A stretch of DNA of 64,000 bases from Croceivirga sp. (GTDB lineage: Bacteria; Bacteroidota; Bacteroidia; Flavobacteriales; Flavobacteriaceae): assembly GCA_028281025.1 (NCBI GenBank), contig JANQKR010000039.1, positions 1 through 64,000 of the forward strand. The letters are read 5' to 3'. The notes under the pieces were generated by a model that saw nothing but the letters and a program-made list of their open reading frames with translations, had not been told where the DNA came from and did no database searches. Positions within the stretch are counted from its first letter, which is position 1; each line of letters starts with the position of its first letter. A program made the position numbers and the translations under genes. Below, piece after piece: positions 12,249 through 19,628 of the stretch.

Positions 12249-12291
12249 ACACCTTGAAATTATAGAAAAAGAAAATTAGTTTGAGTGTTTG

Positions 12292-12334
12292 AAAATCCTG
12301 TTGCGGTACCACTGCAGCGGGATTTTTATTTTTT
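12292..12334 (+). terminator. Terminator of the marR-nitroreductase-yceI unit
   Basis: AAAATCCTGTTGC (12292-12304) pairs with GCAGCGGGATTTT (12314-12326) in a 13-bp stem with two G-U pairs and a 9-nt loop, followed by a long T-rich run. It separates yceI from the trp promoter that begins at 12337. Confidence 0.88.
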
Positions 12335-12336
12335 TG

Positions 12337-12367
12337 TTTGGTTTCATCAAATACATTTCTATATTTG
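12337..12367 (+). promoter_or_regulatory. Promoter of the trp operon
   Basis: TTTG (12337-12340), a 19-nt spacer and TATATTTG (12360-12367) match the Bacteroidota consensus exactly. The predicted start is at about 12371-12373, on or next to the ATG of the leader peptide at 12372, so the trp transcript may be leaderless. Confidence 0.75.
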
Positions 12368-12371
12368 GGAC

Positions 12372-12428
12372 ATGAAAGGTAAACAACAATTGAACTGGTG
12401 GTGGAACAACTTGCGTATACTATCGTGA
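12372..12428 (+). CDS. trpL: trp operon leader peptide with three consecutive Trp codons
   Basis: An 18-codon ORF reads MKGKQQLNWWWNNLRILS and then TGA. The three TGG codons lie at 12396-12404. It sits between a consensus promoter and a hairpin terminator that precedes trpE by 13 nt, the classical layout for Trp-tRNA-sensing attenuation. The ATG is only 4 nt after the -7 box. The peptide itself need have no function; ribosome stalling at the Trp codons is the signal. A Bacteroidota trp leader RNA motif (Bacteroid-trp) has been described from comparative genomics, and this is probably an instance. Confidence 0.88.
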   Translation: MKGKQQLNWWWNNLRILS

Positions 12429-12434
12429 GCTAGT

Positions 12435-12489
12435 CCTATATATCCAGAACCCATATAAGGCTTGTCATCACGACAAGCCTTACTTTTTT
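12435..12489 (+). promoter_or_regulatory. trp attenuator: antiterminator and intrinsic terminator
   Basis: Terminator: TAAGGCTTGTC (12456-12466) pairs perfectly with GACAAGCCTTA (12472-12482) over an ATCAC loop, followed by CTTTTTT. Candidate antiterminator: CCTATAT (12435-12441) can pair with ATATAAGG (12453-12460, one bulged A) and would take the 5' arm of the terminator. A ribosome stalled on the Trp codons leaves 12435-12441 free. One at the stop codon (12428) would cover it and allow termination. The terminator is clear; the antiterminator is my inference. Confidence 0.85.
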
Positions 12490-12502
12490 GAACCAATTTG
12501 AA

Positions 12503-13900
12503 ATGAAATTTGAACTAAAAACCTATTACAAACAGATACTTGCAGATACCATTACCCCTGTTAGTGTGTATCTAAAAATACGGGATAAGTATCCCAATAG
12601 TATTTTATTGGAAAGTAGTGATTACCATGCCAACGACAACAGCTTCTCCTATATTTGCTGCAATCCCATTGCGTACATTAAAATTGAGGGCAATTCCATT
12701 ATCCAACAATTTCCGGATGGTACAGTGGAGGAAATGGAGATTACGGATTCCACGGACGTAACCGCCATAATCCATGGTTTTTCGCAGCGGTTTTCAGTGG
12801 AGAACCACAATTTCAAGTTCATAACCAACGGCCTTTTTGGATATATGGCGTATGATGCCGTCCGTTATTTTGAATCTGTTGAAATCTCCGAAAAATCCAA
12901 TTCCGTTAAAATACCGGATATCTTCTACGCGGTGTATCAAAACATTATTGCGATAAACCATTTTAAAAATGAGGCTTACCTGTTTGCCCATTGTTTTAAT
13001 GCTGAAAATAATGTTGACGACCTGGAGCAATTACTTAAGGTAAGAAGCTTTGCAACCTATAATTTTTCAAAACAAGGTGAAGCCAGATCCAATCTTAAAG
13101 ACGAAGAATATCGGGAACACGTGGAACTGGCCAAAAAACATTGCAAGCGCGGTGATGTATTTCAGTTGGTATTGTCAAGACGGTTTTCCCAAGATTTTAA
13201 GGGGGACGAATTCAATGTGTACCGTGCGTTGCGCTCCATAAATCCATCCCCCTATCTCTTCTATTTTGATTATGGGGATTTTAAAATATTTGGTAGTTCC
13301 CCTGAGGCACAACTGATCGTAAAGGACGGAAAGGCCGAAATACATCCCATTGCCGGGACTTACAAAAGAACGGGCAATGATGAGCAAGATGCCGAACTCG
13401 CCAAAAAACTGGCCGGTGATGAAAAAGAGAACAGTGAACACGTGATGCTGGTGGATCTGGCCCGAAACGATTTGAGCAGAAATGGTAATCTAGTGAATGT
13501 GGAGACCTATAGGGAAGTCCAGTATTTCTCGCATGTCATCCATTTGGTCTCCAAAGTCACCGGACATAAGAAACCGGACATCCCAACTTTAAAAATTGTG
13601 GCGGACACCTTTCCCGCCGGCACTTTGAGCGGGGCTCCAAAACATATGGCCATGCAACTTATTGAAAGATATGAAAAGACCAATAGGGCTTACTATGGGG
13701 GCGCCATTGGATTTATGGATTTCAACGGAAATTTCAACCATGCCATTATGATCCGGACTTTTTTGAGTAAGAACCATCAACTCCATTACCAGGCAGGTGC
13801 AGGTTTGGTTGCCGCATCCAACCCGGAAAACGAATTGCAGGAGACCTATAATAAATTGGGTGCCTTGAACAGGGCATTGGAAATTGCAGAAACGATCTAA
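12503..13900 (+). CDS. trpE: Anthranilate synthase component I
   Basis: A 465-aa chorismate-using enzyme. N-terminal regulatory half: LLESSDYHANDNSFSYIC (the LLES motif for Trp feedback binding) and GLFGYMAYDAVRYFE. C-terminal catalytic half: KKHCKRGDVFQLVLSRRF, PSPYLFYFDYGDFKIFGSSPE, IHPIAGTYKRTG, EHVMLVDLARNDLSR, TFPAGTLSGAPKHMAM, YYGGAIGFMDF and QAGAGLVAASNPENE. It makes anthranilate with TrpG. I use the ATG at 12503; a TTG at 12488 lies in the T-run of the attenuator. trpG starts at the next base after its stop. Confidence 0.96.
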   Translation: MKFELKTYYKQILADTITPVSVYLKIRDKYPNSILLESSDYHANDNSFSYICCNPIAYIKIEGNSIIQQFPDGTVEEMEITDSTDVTAIIHGFSQRFSVENHNFKFITNGLFGYMAYDAVRYFESVEISEKSNSVKIPDIFYAVYQNIIAINHFKNEAYLFAHCFNAENNVDDLEQLLKVRSFATYNFSKQGEARSNLKDEEYREHVELAKKHCKRGDVFQLVLSRRFSQDFKGDEFNVYRALRSINPSPYLFYFDYGDFKIFGSSPEAQLIVKDGKAEIHPIAGTYKRTGNDEQDAELAKKLAGDEKENSEHVMLVDLARNDLSRNGNLVNVETYREVQYFSHVIHLVSKVTGHKKPDIPTLKIVADTFPAGTLSGAPKHMAMQLIERYEKTNRAYYGGAIGFMDFNGNFNHAIMIRTFLSKNHQLHYQAGAGLVAASNPENELQETYNKLGALNRALEIAETI

Positions 13901-14470
13901 ATGGGACGACAGATTTTAATGATAGACAATTACGATAGCTTCACCTATAATTTGGTACACTATCTGGAGGACCTGGGTTGCGAAGTAGTGGTAAAACGAA
14001 ATGACGAACTTACCTTGGACGATGTGGACAGGTTCCAGGAAATTGTCCTTTCACCCGGCCCGGGAATACCTGATGAGGCTGGCCTTTTAAAACCCATAAT
14101 CAAGAAATATGCCCCAAGCAAACGAATTTTTGGTGTTTGTTTGGGACAGCAGGCCATTGGAGAGGTTTTTGGGGGCACCCTTATTAATTTGGATGAAGTA
14201 TACCATGGGGTGGCAACTACCATAGCGATTATAGAGGACGATTACATCTTTCATGGAATGTCAAAAACCATGGAGGTGGGGAGGTACCATTCCTGGGTTG
14301 TGGACAGCGAGCTCCCAAAGGAACTTACGGCCACTTCGGTGGACGAAAAAGGACAGATTATGTCCCTAAAGCACAATACCTATGATGTAAGGGCAGTACA
14401 ATTCCATCCGGAATCCGTACTTACACCGCAAGGAAAACAAATGCTTAAAAATTGGTTGATAGGATCCTAG
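13901..14470 (+). CDS. trpG: Anthranilate synthase component II (glutamine amidotransferase)
   Basis: A 189-aa class I amidotransferase. The catalytic triad is visible: Cys80 in GVCLGQQAIGE, and His169 and Glu171 in QFHPESVLTPQGK. The IDNYDSFTYNLVHYL start and SPGPGIPDEAG oxyanion region are typical of TrpG/PabA. It supplies ammonia from glutamine to TrpE. The ATG follows the trpE stop without any gap, so tight translational coupling is likely. Its stop is followed at once by a heptamer repeat array. Confidence 0.95.
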   Translation: MGRQILMIDNYDSFTYNLVHYLEDLGCEVVVKRNDELTLDDVDRFQEIVLSPGPGIPDEAGLLKPIIKKYAPSKRIFGVCLGQQAIGEVFGGTLINLDEVYHGVATTIAIIEDDYIFHGMSKTMEVGRYHSWVVDSELPKELTATSVDEKGQIMSLKHNTYDVRAVQFHPESVLTPQGKQMLKNWLIGS

Positions 14471-14519
14471 ATGTGAGATGTGAGATGTGAGATGTGAGAT
14501 GTGAGATGTGAGATGTGAG
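14471..14519. repeat. Heptamer tandem array (ATGTGAG)x7
   Basis: Seven perfect copies of ATGTGAG start directly after the trpG stop codon and end 5 bp before the four-helix-bundle gene. There are no spacers and no variation among copies, so it is recent or subject to slippage. It is one of two heptamer arrays in the trp operon. Confidence 0.95.
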
Positions 14520-14524
14520 ATAAA

Positions 14525-14881
14525 ATGAATAATTATAAAGAATTAATAGTTTGGCAAAAATCCATGTCATTGGTTGAAATGGTATACCAATTAACAGCTT
14601 CATTTCCTGAAGAAGAAAAGTTTGGACTAACGAACCAAATTCGAAGAAGCGCGGTTTCCGTTTCGTCCAACATTGCAGAAGGTGCAGGAAGAAATTCAAA
14701 AAAGGAGTTTAGAAATTTTCTTGGTATCGCCAATGGTTCCCTTAATGAATTGATGACCCAGTTGGAGCTTGCCGATAGATTAAGATTCATAGAAGGACAA
14801 AAAATGGAGGAAACCATAGGTTTAGGAAACGAAATCCAAAAAATAATATATACCCTTATCAATAAATTTTCCCATATCTAA
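14525..14881 (+). CDS. Four-helix bundle protein (bS23 / 23S rRNA intervening-sequence protein family)
   Basis: A 118-aa helical protein with the family signature: YKELIVWQKSMSLVEMVYQLT, FPEEEKFGLTNQIRRSAVSVSSNIAEGAGR, KKEFRNFLGIANGSLNELMTQLELA and a C-terminal helix. The family was first seen in 23S rRNA intervening sequences and has since been found as scattered single genes. Here it lies inside the trp operon between trpG and trpD, after the ATGTGAG array, in the same orientation. It has no known role in Trp synthesis. It is intact and likely co-transcribed; an inserted cassette is the likely origin. Confidence 0.9.
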   Translation: MNNYKELIVWQKSMSLVEMVYQLTASFPEEEKFGLTNQIRRSAVSVSSNIAEGAGRNSKKEFRNFLGIANGSLNELMTQLELADRLRFIEGQKMEETIGLGNEIQKIIYTLINKFSHI

Positions 14882-14903
14882 TTTCTCATATCTATATACC
14901 ATA

Positions 14904-15896
14904 ATGAAAGAGACTTTAAACAGACTTATCAATCACGAAATCCTGGCAAAGGAAGATGCCAAACAAATCCTGGTAAATATTGCCAAGGGGCAATACAATA
15001 CTAGTCAAATTGCCGCTTTTCTAACCGTTTATATGATGCGAAGCATTACCATTGAGGAGTTGGAAGGTTTTCGGGATGCGCTCTTGGAACTGTGCTTGGC
15101 AGTGGATTTAAGCGATTATAACCCTATTGACCTCTGTGGAACGGGAGGGGATGGTAAAGACACGTTCAACATTTCCACTTTGGCCTCTTTTGTAACCGCC
15201 GGAGCGGGAATAAAAGTCACCAAGCATGGAAATTATGGGGTTTCCTCCAAATGTGGAAGTAGCAATGTCATGGAGTTTTTGGGCATCAAATTCAGTAACG
15301 AGGCCGATTTTCTCAAAAAATCCATAGATGAAGCCGGTATCTGTGTATTGCATGCGCCCCTTTTTCATCCTGCCATGAAAAATGTGGCCCCCATACGAAG
15401 GGAATTGGCCGTAAAAACCTTTTTCAACATGTTGGGGCCTATGGTTAATCCAGCTTTTCCAAAGAACCAAATGGTGGGCGTATTCAACTTGGAACTGGCC
15501 CGAATGTATGGATACCTCTATCAGAATACGGATAAAAACTTTACCGTACTCCACGCTTTGGACGGCTATGATGAGATCAGTCTAACAGGGGCGACCAAGA
15601 CCATATCCAATGGTTCCGAAGGCATTTTACAGCCCTGGGATTTTGGTTTGGAAAGTGTAAATGCAAATGCCATTGCCGGCGGTGAGGACGTTGCCGAATC
15701 CGCGCAGATTTTTATGAACATTTTACAGGGCAAAGGGGCAGAAGCACAGAATAATGTGGTCTGCGCCAATGCTGGGATAGCCATAGCCACAGTTGAGGGC
15801 CTTGCGCCAAAAGAAGGATTTGAAAAAGCGAAGGAATCCTTGCTAAATGGCAAAGCGTTAAAAGCATTAAGGAAATTACAGGAGTTGAGTAATTAG
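14904..15896 (+). CDS. trpD: Anthranilate phosphoribosyltransferase
   Basis: A 330-aa enzyme of normal length that joins anthranilate to PRPP. It has the glycine-rich PRPP loop CGTGGDGKDTFNIST, the KHGNYGVSSKCGSSNVMEFLG segment, the anthranilate-binding region HPAMKNVAPIRRELAVKTFFNMLGPMVNP, and the DEISLTGAT motif. It is cut off from trpG by the repeat and four-helix-bundle insertion (433 bp), and its stop is followed at once by a second heptamer array. Confidence 0.96.
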   Translation: MKETLNRLINHEILAKEDAKQILVNIAKGQYNTSQIAAFLTVYMMRSITIEELEGFRDALLELCLAVDLSDYNPIDLCGTGGDGKDTFNISTLASFVTAGAGIKVTKHGNYGVSSKCGSSNVMEFLGIKFSNEADFLKKSIDEAGICVLHAPLFHPAMKNVAPIRRELAVKTFFNMLGPMVNPAFPKNQMVGVFNLELARMYGYLYQNTDKNFTVLHALDGYDEISLTGATKTISNGSEGILQPWDFGLESVNANAIAGGEDVAESAQIFMNILQGKGAEAQNNVVCANAGIAIATVEGLAPKEGFEKAKESLLNGKALKALRKLQELSN

Positions 15897-15935
15897 TTGT
15901 TGGTTGTTAGTTGTTGGTTGTTGGTTGTTGGTTGT
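15897..15935. repeat. Heptamer tandem array (TTGTTGG)x5.5
   Basis: Five copies of TTGTTGG, the second being TTGTTAG, plus a partial TTGT, start on the base after the trpD stop. A small ORF begins 1 bp after the array. The unit length and placement copy the ATGTGAG array after trpG, but the unit sequence differs. Confidence 0.92.
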
Positions 15936-15936
15936 A

Positions 15937-16164
15937 ATGGATTTAAAGTCTTTTTTTCAAAAGCAACTGTTTTGGTCGATTCCAATTGTTTCAACCATCG
16001 GAAATTTAGTTACCCAAGACCTAACCATTGGGATAAATAGTGTACAAAGGATGTATGACATAAGCACGATAATGGCGTTTGAAGTCTTCAATACTACTGT
16101 AGTAATGGGGGGAGCCTTACTTATTATTTCTGGATCAATGTTCACAATTCCATTAAATGAATAA
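15937..16164 (+). CDS. Small hypothetical membrane protein in the trp operon
   Basis: A 75-aa ORF from the ATG at 15937 (MDLKSFFQKQLFW) to 16164. Two hydrophobic stretches are visible, one around FWSIPIVSTIGNLV and one around TTVVMGGALLIISGSMFTI. I do not recognise the family. It follows the TTGTTGG array and precedes trpC by 22 bp, in the same direction. It may be a true small protein or chance coding in inserted DNA. A longer version would begin with a TTG within the repeats and read them as amino acids, which is unlikely. Confidence 0.45.
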   Translation: MDLKSFFQKQLFWSIPIVSTIGNLVTQDLTIGINSVQRMYDISTIMAFEVFNTTVVMGGALLIISGSMFTIPLNE

Positions 16165-16186
16165 TCATAAACCAACAATCGAAAAA

Positions 16187-16972
16187 ATGAACATTCTGGA
16201 AAAAATAGTAGCGGATAAACGAAAGGAAGTTTTTCTCAAACAGTCTTTGATTCCAACGTTACAACTGGAAAAGTCGGTTTTGTTTGAGCGGAAATGCGCG
16301 TCCCTGGCTTCTGCTTTAAAGAACAGTAATACGGGAATCATTGCAGAACATAAACGACGTTCCCCTTCTAAACACACCATAAATCAAAATACCAACGTAG
16401 CCCAGGTAGCAAAGGGGTATCAAAACGCCGGCGTATGTGGAATGAGCGTACTTACGGATATCAAATACTTTGGAGGTTCGCTGGAGGATCTGCTCCTGGC
16501 AAGGGCATCTGTGGACATGCCCTTATTGAGAAAGGAATTTATGATAGACGAATATCAGGTATTGGAAGCTAAGGCCAATGGGGCGGATGTGATTTTACTC
16601 ATTGCCGCGGTACTGTCCAAAGAGGAACTAAAAGTACTTTCCGAGCTGGCCAAAAGTTTGGGGATGAACGTACTTTTAGAGGTCCACAACCAACAGGAAT
16701 TGAACAAGTCCTTACTGCCCAGTGTGGACATGTTGGGCGTTAACAACCGTAATTTAAAAACCTTTCAAGTGAGTTTGGAAACCAGCAAGTCGTTGGCCAG
16801 AGAAATCCCGGAGGATTTTGTAAAAGTATCCGAGAGTGGCATAAGTTCCATTAGTGCCATTACAGAACTTAAGGAATTCGGTTATCAAGGCTTTTTGATC
16901 GGTGAGAACTTTATGAAAACGGAAAACCCGGGAGAAAGCGCCGCGGAATTTATTCAAAAATTAGGGAGATGA
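16187..16972 (+). CDS. trpC: Indole-3-glycerol phosphate synthase
   Basis: A 261-aa TIM-barrel enzyme: NILEKIVADKRKEV at the start, IIAEHKRRSPSK (catalytic Lys and substrate loop), VCGMSVLTDIKYFGGSLEDL, PLLRKEFMIDEYQVLEAKANGADVILLIAA, LLEVHNQQELNKSL, LGVNNRNLKTF, VSESGISS and GFLIGENFMKTENPGESAAEF. The ATG at 16187 gives the usual family start. An ATG at 16157 would overlap the small ORF and add ten unusual residues. The stop overlaps the trpF ATG by 4 bp. Confidence 0.95.
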   Translation: MNILEKIVADKRKEVFLKQSLIPTLQLEKSVLFERKCASLASALKNSNTGIIAEHKRRSPSKHTINQNTNVAQVAKGYQNAGVCGMSVLTDIKYFGGSLEDLLLARASVDMPLLRKEFMIDEYQVLEAKANGADVILLIAAVLSKEELKVLSELAKSLGMNVLLEVHNQQELNKSLLPSVDMLGVNNRNLKTFQVSLETSKSLAREIPEDFVKVSESGISSISAITELKEFGYQGFLIGENFMKTENPGESAAEFIQKLGR

Positions 16973-17628
16973 AGCTTAAAATATGTGGTCAAAAACATAA
17001 TATTGCGGATGTGGCTGGTTTGCAACCGGATTACCTTGGTTTCATCTTTTGGGAACCCTCGTCCCGTTACTTTGATCATGAACCGTTCCCACTACCCCCA
17101 GAAATAAAGGGCGTTGGGGTTTTTGTGGACGCCCCCATTGAAAGCGTTTTGGAAAAGGTTGCAACATATCATTTGGATGCCGTTCAGTTACATGGAAATG
17201 AAACTCCGGAATACTGTACAAACCTAAAAAAGCGCCATTCCAAACTTGTTCCGGAATTCCAAACCAAAGAATTTGACATCATAAAGGTATTTTCAATCAA
17301 GGAAACATTCGATTTTTCCATCTTAAAAGCTTACGAGGATTCCTGTGACTATTTCCTATTTGACACCAAGGGAAAGCTGCCTGGAGGAAATGGTTACGCT
17401 TTTGATTGGGGAGTCCTGCAACAATACCCTTCAACCAAACCCTATTTTCTAAGTGGGGGTATTGGATTGGAGAATGTAAATGAATTACGGAAATTCTTGG
17501 AAACCGATACCTCAAAATACTGTTATGCCATTGATGTGAACAGCAAATTTGAAACGGAACCCGGACGTAAGGATATCAAAAAACTAAAAGAATTTAAAAA
17601 AGTGCTGGAAAATGAGTTATCACGCTAA
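16969..17628 (+). CDS. trpF: Phosphoribosylanthranilate isomerase
   Basis: A 219-aa TIM-barrel isomerase with the start [33 protein letters not shown] (the catalytic Cys is in KICG), [38 protein letters not shown] (phosphate loop), [13 protein letters not shown] and [16 protein letters not shown]. It overlaps trpC by 4 bp and trpB by 17 bp, so this part of the operon is tightly coupled, unlike the junctions on either side of trpD and at trpB-trpA. Confidence 0.94.
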
Positions 17629-18793
17629 CGAAAAAGGTTATTACGGAGAATTTGGAGGGGCATTCATTCCCGAGATGTTGTACCCGAATTGTGAGGAACT
17701 TCGCCAAAATTACATTCGGATCATGTCAGAACCTTCCTTTCAGGAAGAGTTCCATCAACTGTTAAAAGACTACGTAGGCAGACCTACCCCACTATATTTT
17801 GCAGAGCGTTTATCGGAAAAGTATCAAACCAAAATATATCTAAAACGGGAAGACCTTTGTCATACAGGGGCGCACAAGGTCAATAACACTATTGGGCAAA
17901 TTTTGATGGCCAAAAAATTGGGCAAAAACCGAATCATAGCGGAAACGGGTGCAGGGCAACACGGGGTTGCCACAGCAACGGTCTGTGCTTTAATGGGTAT
18001 TGAGTGCGTCGTGTACATGGGCGAAATTGACATTGACAGACAAGCGCCCAATGTAGCCCGCATGAAGATGTTGGGTGCAGAGGTCCGTGCGGCCAAGTCT
18101 GGCAGTAGAACGTTAAAGGACGCTACCAATGAAGCCATACGTGATTGGATCAACAACCCTGTAAATACCCATTACATTATAGGCTCGGTTGTAGGGCCGC
18201 ACCCCTATCCAGATATGGTAGCGCGTTTTCAATCCGTAATTTCTGAAGAAATCAAATGGCAGTTACGGGAAAAGGAAGGGAGGGAGAATCCCGATTATGT
18301 AGTGGCCTGTGTGGGCGGTGGTAGCAATGCCGCTGGTGCCTATTATCATTATTTGGACACTCCGGAGGTCGGTATCATTGCCGTAGAGGCAGCTGGCAAA
18401 GGAGTTAATTCCGGGGAAAGTGCTGCAACATCGGCCTTGGGAAAAGTAGGTATCATCCATGGTAGCAAAACCCTGTTGATGCAAACCGAAGATGGTCAAA
18501 TTACCGAACCGTATTCCATTTCCGCGGGACTGGACTACCCTGGAGTAGGACCCATGCATGCACATTTGTACAAAAGTGGTCGTGGGGAATTCATTTCAAT
18601 CACCGATGATGAAGCCATGACCGCCGGCCTGGAAATGTCGCAATTGGAAGGCATTATTCCTGCTATAGAAACCAGCCATGCCTTCGCTATTTTCGATTAT
18701 AAAAAATTCGAGAAGGATGATGTTATTGTAATCAATCTTTCGGGGAGGGGAGATAAGGATTTACAGACCTATATAGACTATTTTAAGTTATAA
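17612..18793 (+). CDS. trpB: Tryptophan synthase beta chain
   Basis: A 393-aa PLP enzyme. It has the start [26 protein letters not shown], the PLP-lysine motif [31 protein letters not shown] (catalytic Glu region), [15 protein letters not shown] (PLP phosphate loop), [10 protein letters not shown]-like text ([16 protein letters not shown]) and [11 protein letters not shown]-like text ([19 protein letters not shown]). It converts indole and serine to Trp. The start ATG lies inside the 3' end of trpF. Confidence 0.97.
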
Positions 18794-18821
18794 CGTCATT
18801 TCGAACGAACCTGGGAAATCG
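18794..18821. repeat. Remnant of a dispersed palindromic repeat between trpB and trpA
   Basis: Starting on the base after the trpB stop, CGTCATTTCGAACGAACC followed by TGGGAAATCG resembles the dispersed CGTCATTTCGA...GAAATC family common in flavobacterial intergenic DNA. The palindrome is not intact here. The match is from memory of the motif and needs a search. Confidence 0.4.
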
Positions 18822-18866
18822 AATAACAATTCCCAATCACATACCTGATTTTCAACAACTAAACAA

Positions 18867-19628
18867 ATGAACAGAATAAAAGCCAAGCTCCAGGAGAACA
18901 AAAAACTCCTCTCCATTTACTTCACCGCGGGTTATCCAAAATTGGACGATACCGTTCCAATAATTCAGGAATTGGAGAAGGCGGGAGTGGATATGATAGA
19001 AATAGGCCTTCCTTTTAGCGATCCATTGGCAGATGGACCTACCATTCAGAAAAGTTCCACAGCTGCACTGGGAAATGGTATGCACACCGAACTGCTATTT
19101 GAACAATTAAAGGACATTCGGAAATCCGTTTCCATTCCCTTGATCGTTATGGGCTATTTTAATCCAATGCTACAGTACGGGGTCGAGGCTTTTTGCCGAA
19201 AATGTCTTGAAATTGGGATAGATGGTATTATTATGCCCGATCTTCCCCTGGATGTCTATAAAGAAGCGTACGAAGCCATTTACAAAAAATACAATCTTAT
19301 CAACGTCTTCTTGATTACCCCCCAGACCAGCGAAGAACGCATTCGTGCAATCGACAATGCCTCGGATGGTTTTATTTATATGGTCAGTTCGGCGAGCACC
19401 ACCGGTGCCAAGGATGGTTTTGGTGAGGAACAGCAGGAATACTTCCAACGGATTGCCAAACTAAATCTCAAAAATCCACAGATAGTGGGGTTTGGCATTA
19501 GTAATGCGAACACCTTTCAGGCGGCCACGGCTAAAACCAAAGGGGCCATTATTGGATCTGCATTTATCAAGCATTTAACGGAAAACGGGATTGAAAAGAT
19601 TGGGAATTTCATCAAAACGATCCGATAA
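18867..19628 (+). CDS. trpA: Tryptophan synthase alpha chain
   Basis: A 253-aa TIM-barrel enzyme with the start LLSIYFTAGYPKLDDT, the catalytic Glu and Asp regions (DMIEIGLPFSDPLADGPTIQKSS), MGYFNPMLQYGVEAFCRKC, GIIMPDLPLDVY, NVFLITPQTSEERIRAID, FIYMVSSASTTGAKDGF and VGFGISNANTF with IIGSAFIKHL. It cleaves indole-glycerol phosphate to indole for TrpB. It is the last trp gene. A 73-bp gap separates it from trpB. No clear terminator is seen before the convergent SusD gene 20 bp away. Confidence 0.96.
   Translation: MNRIKAKLQENKKLLSIYFTAGYPKLDDTVPIIQELEKAGVDMIEIGLPFSDPLADGPTIQKSSTAALGNGMHTELLFEQLKDIRKSVSIPLIVMGYFNPMLQYGVEAFCRKCLEIGIDGIIMPDLPLDVYKEAYEAIYKKYNLINVFLITPQTSEERIRAIDNASDGFIYMVSSASTTGAKDGFGEEQQEYFQRIAKLNLKNPQIVGFGISNANTFQAATAKTKGAIIGSAFIKHLTENGIEKIGNFIKTIR

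Follow-up and report, generated by a model that had tools for sequence, protein, structure and literature searches.

We conclude, with a probability of about 0.86, that positions 12337-12502 of the window (the whole 64,000-nt stretch of Croceivirga DNA that was analysed) are a classical ribosome-mediated trp transcription attenuator. Its anatomy, conservation and mutually exclusive helices were computed; ribosome stalling, coupling, termination and the start of transcription are inferred. This kind of regulator is already known; here its complete folding plan was worked out and followed through many Bacteroidia families. In the proposed mechanism the RNA would begin on the leader ATG, or no more than one nucleotide away from it, and its 5' end would be where a ribosome loads. 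If Trp-tRNA were scarce, the ribosome would stall at the three tandem Trp codons and cover region 1 (CUUGCG). This would free region 2 (UCGUGA onward) to pair with region 3 in a hairpin (12423-12473) that locks up the 5' arm, loop and first 3'-arm bases of the terminator, giving read-through into trpEGDCFBA. If Trp were plentiful, the ribosome would reach the UGA inside region 2 and mask that region, the terminator would form and transcription would end at T6. With no translation, region 1 would pair with region 2 and the terminator would again be free to form. The features are listed in Table 1.

Table 1. Features of the leader and of the trp genes downstream of it, in window coordinates
Feature	Position	Strand	Details or basis
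-33 element, TTTG	12337-12340	+	Bacteroidota sigma-A promoter; 19-nt spacer to the -7 box; sequence and consensus
-7 box, TATATTTG (TAnnTTTG)	12360-12367	+	sequence
Predicted transcription start, the A of the leader ATG	12372	+	predicted from the position of the -7 box
Leader ORF, MKGKQQLNWWWNNLRILS*, 18 codons	12372-12428	+	sequence; ATG AAA GGT AAA CAA CAA TTG AAC TGG TGG TGG AAC AAC TTG CGT ATA CTA TCG TGA
Three tandem Trp codons, codons 9-11 (predicted stall site)	12396-12404	+	sequence
Region 1, CUUGCG	12410-12415	+	protector helix with CGUGAG 12424-12429 in ribosome-free folds; -4.1 kcal/mol alone
Region 2, antiterminator 5' half	12423-12441	+	starts UCGUGA and includes the leader stop codon; stalled-state fold
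Region 3, antiterminator 3' half	12453-12473	+	most of the terminator 5' arm, the loop and UCACGA 12468-12473; folds and comparison
Intrinsic terminator hairpin, UAAGGCUUGUC-AUCAC-GACAAGCCUUA	12456-12482	+	11 bp, loop of 5, -16.0 kcal/mol
Terminator U tract, T6	12484-12489	+	sequence
trpE, first structural gene	12503-13900	+	PF04715 and PF00425; ATG 13 nt past T6
trpG	13901-14470	+	Pfam match
PF05635 gene between trpG and trpD	14525-14881	+	Pfam match
trpD	14904-15896	+	Pfam match
trpC	16157-16972	+	Pfam match
trpF	16969-17628	+	Pfam match
trpB	17612-18793	+	Pfam match
trpA	18867-19628	+	Pfam match

The leader, its promoter and the operon

Inspection of the sequence found each element that the initial annotation had listed for 12337-12502 (the promoter, the 18-codon ORF with WWW, the terminator of 11 bp followed by T6, and 13 nt further on the trpE ATG) exactly where it had been placed. 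A short leader ORF with tandem codons for the product amino acid precedes the biosynthetic operon, an intrinsic terminator lies between this ORF and the first structural gene, and trpE through trpA (12503-19628) appear to form one transcript. The 156-nt leader folded at -37.8 kcal/mol (z -2.98), a value that 0 of 200 dinucleotide shuffles equalled. An exact search of the genome for a second copy of the attenuator (GGCTTGTC-N3-8-GACAAGCC) gave no site beyond the one known.

Within the operon, the PF05635 product is a 118-aa 23S rRNA intervening-sequence protein (3.1e-40). By eye, a run of GTTGGTT-like repeats (15892-15936) lies 3' of trpD, and from 15937 to about 16164 a hydrophobic-looking frame of ~75 codons runs into the trpC start. 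A strong terminator-like hairpin (12290-12328, + strand) lies 3' of a YceI-like gene and ends 8 nt before the trp -33 element.

The promoter fits the Bacteroidota consensus TTTG/TAnnTTTG, as given in a passage of PMC7366714; an E. coli-type promoter was rejected, as a sigma-70 promoter scan gave no match and the Bacteroidota consensus fits. For F. psychrophilum, passages of PMC9723704 place the TAnnTTTG box at -12 to -5 and put leaderless mRNAs at 5.5% of those measured. When the end of the Croceivirga -7 box (12367) is set at -5, the predicted first base of the transcript is the A of the leader ATG, at 12372. The mRNA for the leader peptide is probably leaderless, its start being predicted from the -7 box rather than mapped. 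In the 5.1-Mb genome (both strands), TATATTTG followed by ATG after 2-7 nt occurred 23 times, and a reversed-pattern control gave 9 occurrences. This predicted leaderless start was missed in the initial annotation, as was the protector helix between region 1 and CGUGAG.

Mutually exclusive folds of the leader

A stalled ribosome would hide the RNA up to about 12409-12415. We modelled the stalled state by folding RNA exposed from 12409, 12412 or 12415 with the transcript end at 12475, and for all three exposure starts the minimum free energy structure was a single antiterminator hairpin (12423-12473, -12.5 kcal/mol) in which UCGUGAGC/AGUC/UAUAU (12423-12441) pairs with AUAUA/GGCU/GU/UCACGA (12453-12473). 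This predicted antiterminator spans the terminator 5' arm, its loop and the first two bases of its 3' arm. When the RNA was exposed from 12439, as it would be by a ribosome at the stop codon, the terminator was the only structure (-16.6); the ribosome-free fold had both the terminator and the protector helix. Almost the same hexamer, at the 3' end of the ORF, is therefore placed, in the three folds, in the protector helix, in the antiterminator or under the ribosome. The computed folds and the comparison below thus give an antiterminator that is exclusive with the terminator and that a Trp-stalled ribosome would expose, together with a 1:2 protector helix that is energetically weak in the family. 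For the full-length stalled transcript the terminator is still the favoured form at equilibrium (-16.0 vs -12.5), so the switch must be kinetic. The bare UCGUGA:UCACGA contact was rejected as the whole antiterminator, being too small where the fold gives one long hairpin.

The initial annotation had proposed that the antiterminator is just CCTATAT paired with ATATAAGG, placed directly after the leader stop codon. Part of this stands: UAUAU:AUAUA does pair, as the tip of the stalled-state hairpin, and local AU-rich hairpins occur at the same place in several other leaders. The pairing is only the apical part of the longer hairpin, however, and the predicted antiterminator has its 5' end within the leader ORF, at UCG-UGA, not past the stop codon. 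On 80 aligned family leaders, hand-picked for variety from the 132 listed, CCTATAT:ATATAAGG was paired at the level of shuffles (47.0% vs 47.2%), whereas UCGUGA:UCACGA was paired in 99.0% of cells, which 0 of 500 shuffles reached; the alignment test of the former is weak because the alignment is poor in the AU-rich part. An equivalent of UCGUGA:UCACGA also recurs with unrelated sequences in other families. With a longer hairpin in the fold and pairing at shuffle level, CCTATAT:ATATAAGG was rejected as the whole antiterminator, and we regard it as distinctly unlikely in that role.

The initial annotation had also suggested looking for covariation of both stems. The main terminator helix was paired in 99.6% of cells among the 80 relatives, with four pairs changed on both sides. 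Within the family UCGUGA:UCACGA covaried at two pairs changed on both sides (3 cells); a shift of the partner by +3 gave a higher covariation score (0.061 vs 0.041). The protector helix was paired in 74.8% of cells of the family alignment, and the middle antiterminator helix in 68.1%, the same as its shuffles (68.1%), with no covariation in that alignment. Among 131 close leaders UCGUGA holds the stop codon in 67, the stop lies elsewhere in 55, and 9 are without the exact hexamer; as UCGUGA is kept in those 55 without holding the stop, it is conserved as RNA.

Conservation through the Bacteroidia

TrpE orthologues were taken from the genus (present in 11 of 11 genomes), the family (149 genomes searched) and the class (247 genomes), the listed orthologues being ~46% identical or more, and gave 214 upstream regions from Bacteroidia. 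Nine listed places were left out (G076, G089, G157, which is partial, G163, G211, G316, G330, G368 and the second copy in G169). An automatic filter passed 199 of the 214 regions; it called for an in-frame ATG, then a pair of Trp codons with at most one codon between them, then a terminator. One of these, L209, was removed by hand as doubtful, as its W-x-W pair lies 338 nt upstream with a tRNA-like stretch (by eye) between the pair and trpE, and manual corrections were made to the terminators of L010 and L200. A leader ORF with Trp codons and a terminator therefore precedes trpE in 198/214 regions: 145 from the same family as Croceivirga and 53 from 21 other families. L058 is without an upstream start and was excluded from start-based counts.

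Among the 15 regions that failed the filter, L076, L102 and L126 resemble leaders that start with TTG or GTG, L217 carries W-C-C, and four have trpB directly 5' of trpE. In all four of the latter (4/4) the leader stands before trpB, and the four fetched operons show the same attenuator logic there. These leaders (L320, L321, L322 and L323) have WW, lie 157-175 nt before trpB at the new operon front, and have a region 2 of GUCGUAAG- or GUCGUGAG-type. Six further genomes showed no leader in the stretch covered upstream of trpB, which was 355 to 1,500 nt long.

In the named close relatives, a set that partly overlaps with the other genomes compared, WWW is kept in 80/80 (71/71 + 9/9), the terminator motif in 79/80 (70/71 + 9/9), and TGGTGGTGG in all 71 that were measured. 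Compared by TrpE, Flavobacteriaceae bacterium GF1 (98%) is the closest of the named relatives; next come records of Allomuricauda, Muricauda and Flagellimonas, none of them above 86%. The leader lies no more than 400 nt from trpE in 71/80 of this set and 466-554 nt upstream in 9/80. In these nine (L237, L238, L242, L247, L253, L265, L267, L272 and L293) extra DNA, about 400-500 nt before trpE, separates the gene from its attenuator. The insert of L272 has a 94-aa ORF that by eye is GIY-YIG-nuclease-like, and similar C-terminal codons occur in the other eight, so a foreign gene may have been brought under trp control.

The promoter and the spacing of the leader were compared in the same way. 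The -33 region has TTG in 68/71 measured named relatives, and a TAnnTTT[G/A] box lies 5' of the leader ATG in 184/197 leaders. The gap from box to ATG is 4-5 nt in 48/71 measured named close relatives and at most 8 nt in 70/71, which predicts a 5' UTR of 0-4 nt in 70/71; a gap of 4-5 nt was found in 45/143 family leaders, which have a second peak at 14-22 nt, and in 11/41 other-family leaders having a box. Eight codons precede the first Trp codon in 134/184 leaders measured, and region 2 begins 25-29 nt past that codon in 135/144 family leaders. In 9/53 other-family leaders the stop codon is more than 15 nt beyond region 2, so that a ribosome at the stop may no longer mask region 2. Some other-family leaders have their two Trp codons one codon apart: W-R-W in L166, L168, L170, L172 and L173, W-L-W in L180 and L183, and W-C-W in L161.

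The leaders were also folded singly. The pairing of a leader's own region 2 with its own terminator apex beat dinucleotide shuffles with a mean z of -2.09 in the family (n=145) and -1.54 in other families (n=53), and z was -2.3 for the Croceivirga leader; single-leader shuffles were convincing (at most 10/200 as good) only in 83/145 family and 23/53 other-family leaders, and z was at least 0.0 in seven of the 53 (L166, L168, L172, L201, L202, L203 and L226). Stalled-state fold energies had a mean z of -2.55 (145) and -1.99 (53), and only -1.3 for Croceivirga. These energies are a stronger result than the finding that region 2 was joined to the hairpin by at least five pairs in 198/198 stalled-state folds, as shuffles are expected to do this in 113.6. 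Region 2 was sequestered by upstream RNA in 140/144 family leaders and 46/53 others (50.6 and 29.3 expected when the upstream RNA was shuffled), and the energy gain of the protector had a mean z of -0.39 in the family and -1.47 elsewhere. A count in which region 2 was free of the stalled ribosome in 197/197 leaders was discarded as circular, region 2 having been sought only in RNA presumed to be exposed. A companion count, of region 2 masked by a ribosome at the stop codon, still includes those leaders (9/53) in which the ribosome would have moved past it.

Given how highly conserved the family is, a test that needs no alignment carries more weight. We took one leader from each of 22 families and paired its post-Trp segment with its own and with the other families' terminator apices. 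In 20 of 20 random draws, 0/5,000 permutations and 0/40 composition-preserving dinucleotide shuffles were as good as the true assignment; for the first fixed choice of leaders the counts were 0/20,000 and 0/200, and for 19 leaders with dissimilar hairpins 0/20,000 and 0/300, although in this last case the best shuffle (-62.7) nearly reached the observed value (-63.1). Of the summed signal, ~30% comes from base composition (mean of the shuffles -24.2, against -81.0 observed), and in each draw only 5-9 of the 22 leaders paired better with their own apex than with any other. Pairings of differing sequence include UGAAUCGG:CCGAUUCA (L190), GAUGAACA:UGUUCAUC (L194), CGCUGUGA:UCACAGCG (L200) and GGAUUCAG:CUGAAUCC (L153).

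These results bear on whether the arrangement is chance, with constitutive read-through of an ordinary terminator that happens to follow a spurious ORF. Short ORFs are common and the shuffle expectation of 113.6/198 for joining is high, but the conserved WWW, spacing, helices and operon-first position make the probability of such a coincidence close to negligible. They bear likewise on the alternative that a protein or small molecule, rather than the ribosome, reads the leader RNA, as TRAP-like, T-box or Trp riboswitch systems would. Such systems are known to control trp genes elsewhere; here the Trp codons are conserved in frame and region 2 keeps its spacing from them, profile searches of the genome for TrpR (PF01371) and TRAP (PF02081) gave no match, and Rfam at gathering thresholds found three tRNAs only in the 64,000-nt window, with no known T-box or riboswitch. 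Control by TRAP, TrpR or a T-box was thus not found among these searches, and we consider a reader other than the ribosome very improbable. As TrpR and TRAP are without a match, attenuation may be the main Trp-specific control. The ribosome-stalling attenuation at Trp codons put forward in the initial annotation is well supported by the comparison, in which WWW, the terminator and the alternative helices are conserved, and the loss from close relatives that would have spoken against it was not seen.

More broadly, and with a confidence that only leans in its favour, we propose a class-wide Bacteroidota trp attenuator in which the leader RNA of the Muricauda/Maribacter group would be leaderless and the stop-codon region would be the switch strand, pairing with the Trp-proximal strand, pairing with the terminator apex or lying under the ribosome. 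If this is true, its survival in 22 sampled families whose sequences have diverged widely would point to close coupling of ribosome and RNA polymerase at the start of the transcript, and intrinsic termination would be a main switch in Bacteroidota. To our knowledge, Bacteroidota do not rely on Shine-Dalgarno sequences. The sequence of the terminator stem is conserved across the family, possibly because its bases are shared by several pairings. The attenuator would also be a ready assay for transcription-translation coupling in Bacteroidota, as a classical attenuator should fail without coupling.

Comparison with known attenuators

The Bacteroidota trp leader motif mentioned in the initial annotation is Bacteroid-trp (RF01692), which has a row in a table of Weinberg et al. 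2010 (PMC2864571) and lies before trp genes in Bacteroidetes. The Croceivirga attenuator is homologous to this motif, as a divergent relative. It scored 23.8 bits (E 1.8) at 12357-12466, below the gathering cut-off of 49 bits, and is therefore not filed as an RF01692 match, although it would work like one. When 20 trp loci including that of Croceivirga were scanned, 13 passed and 7 failed, Croceivirga's own being among the 7; 13 of the 19 other loci thus pass, the same-genus leader L011 with 66.9 bits, and the locus is homologous to accepted members through these leaders of orthologous operons. The RF01692 model ends in AAGGCUUGUC, as does the 5' arm of the Croceivirga terminator. As aligned, it comprises a single hairpin of the protector type and reaches no further than the 5' arm of the terminator, so that it contains neither terminator nor antiterminator; the present analysis adds these and the predicted start site. 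No antiterminator model for a Bacteroidota trp attenuator was found in a search of open-licence literature; Lopatovskaya et al. 2010 may cover part of this ground.

F. psychrophilum, also a flavobacterium, has leader-peptide attenuators noted: a passage of PMC6414381 reports that the Bacteroid-trp motif precedes its trp operon, and one of PMC9723704 makes a general statement on leader-peptide attenuation. These passages do not describe the structure of the trp leader.

A further likeness is to S. meliloti trpLE(G), for which a passage of PMC7298713 gives an RNA 5' end at the trpL ATG and attenuation without Trp-dependent repression. The trpL of S. meliloti is thus leaderless and controlled by attenuation, like the leader predicted here; it differs in being alphaproteobacterial with a 14-aa peptide. 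The products of S. meliloti trpL, rnTrpL and peTrpL, act in trans, and the terminated leader RNA or the peptide of Croceivirga might do so too, besides attenuation. Strong conservation of the leader RNA sequence in the family would fit this, but it can be explained by the overlapping pairings, and the peptide before WWW varies among ten translated leaders; we think such an added function in trans unlikely.

The classical system is the E. coli trpL attenuator, with tandem Trp codons in the leader peptide and mutually exclusive 1:2, 2:3 and 3:4 helices. Unlike E. coli trpL, the Croceivirga leader is predicted to be leaderless, has a Bacteroidota promoter and stands in a genome with no TrpR match, and its region 2 holds the stop codon and reaches the loop and 3' arm of the terminator. 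It has three Trp codons to the two of E. coli. Common to both leaders are the tandem Trp codons and the exclusive 1:2, 2:3 and 3:4 helices.
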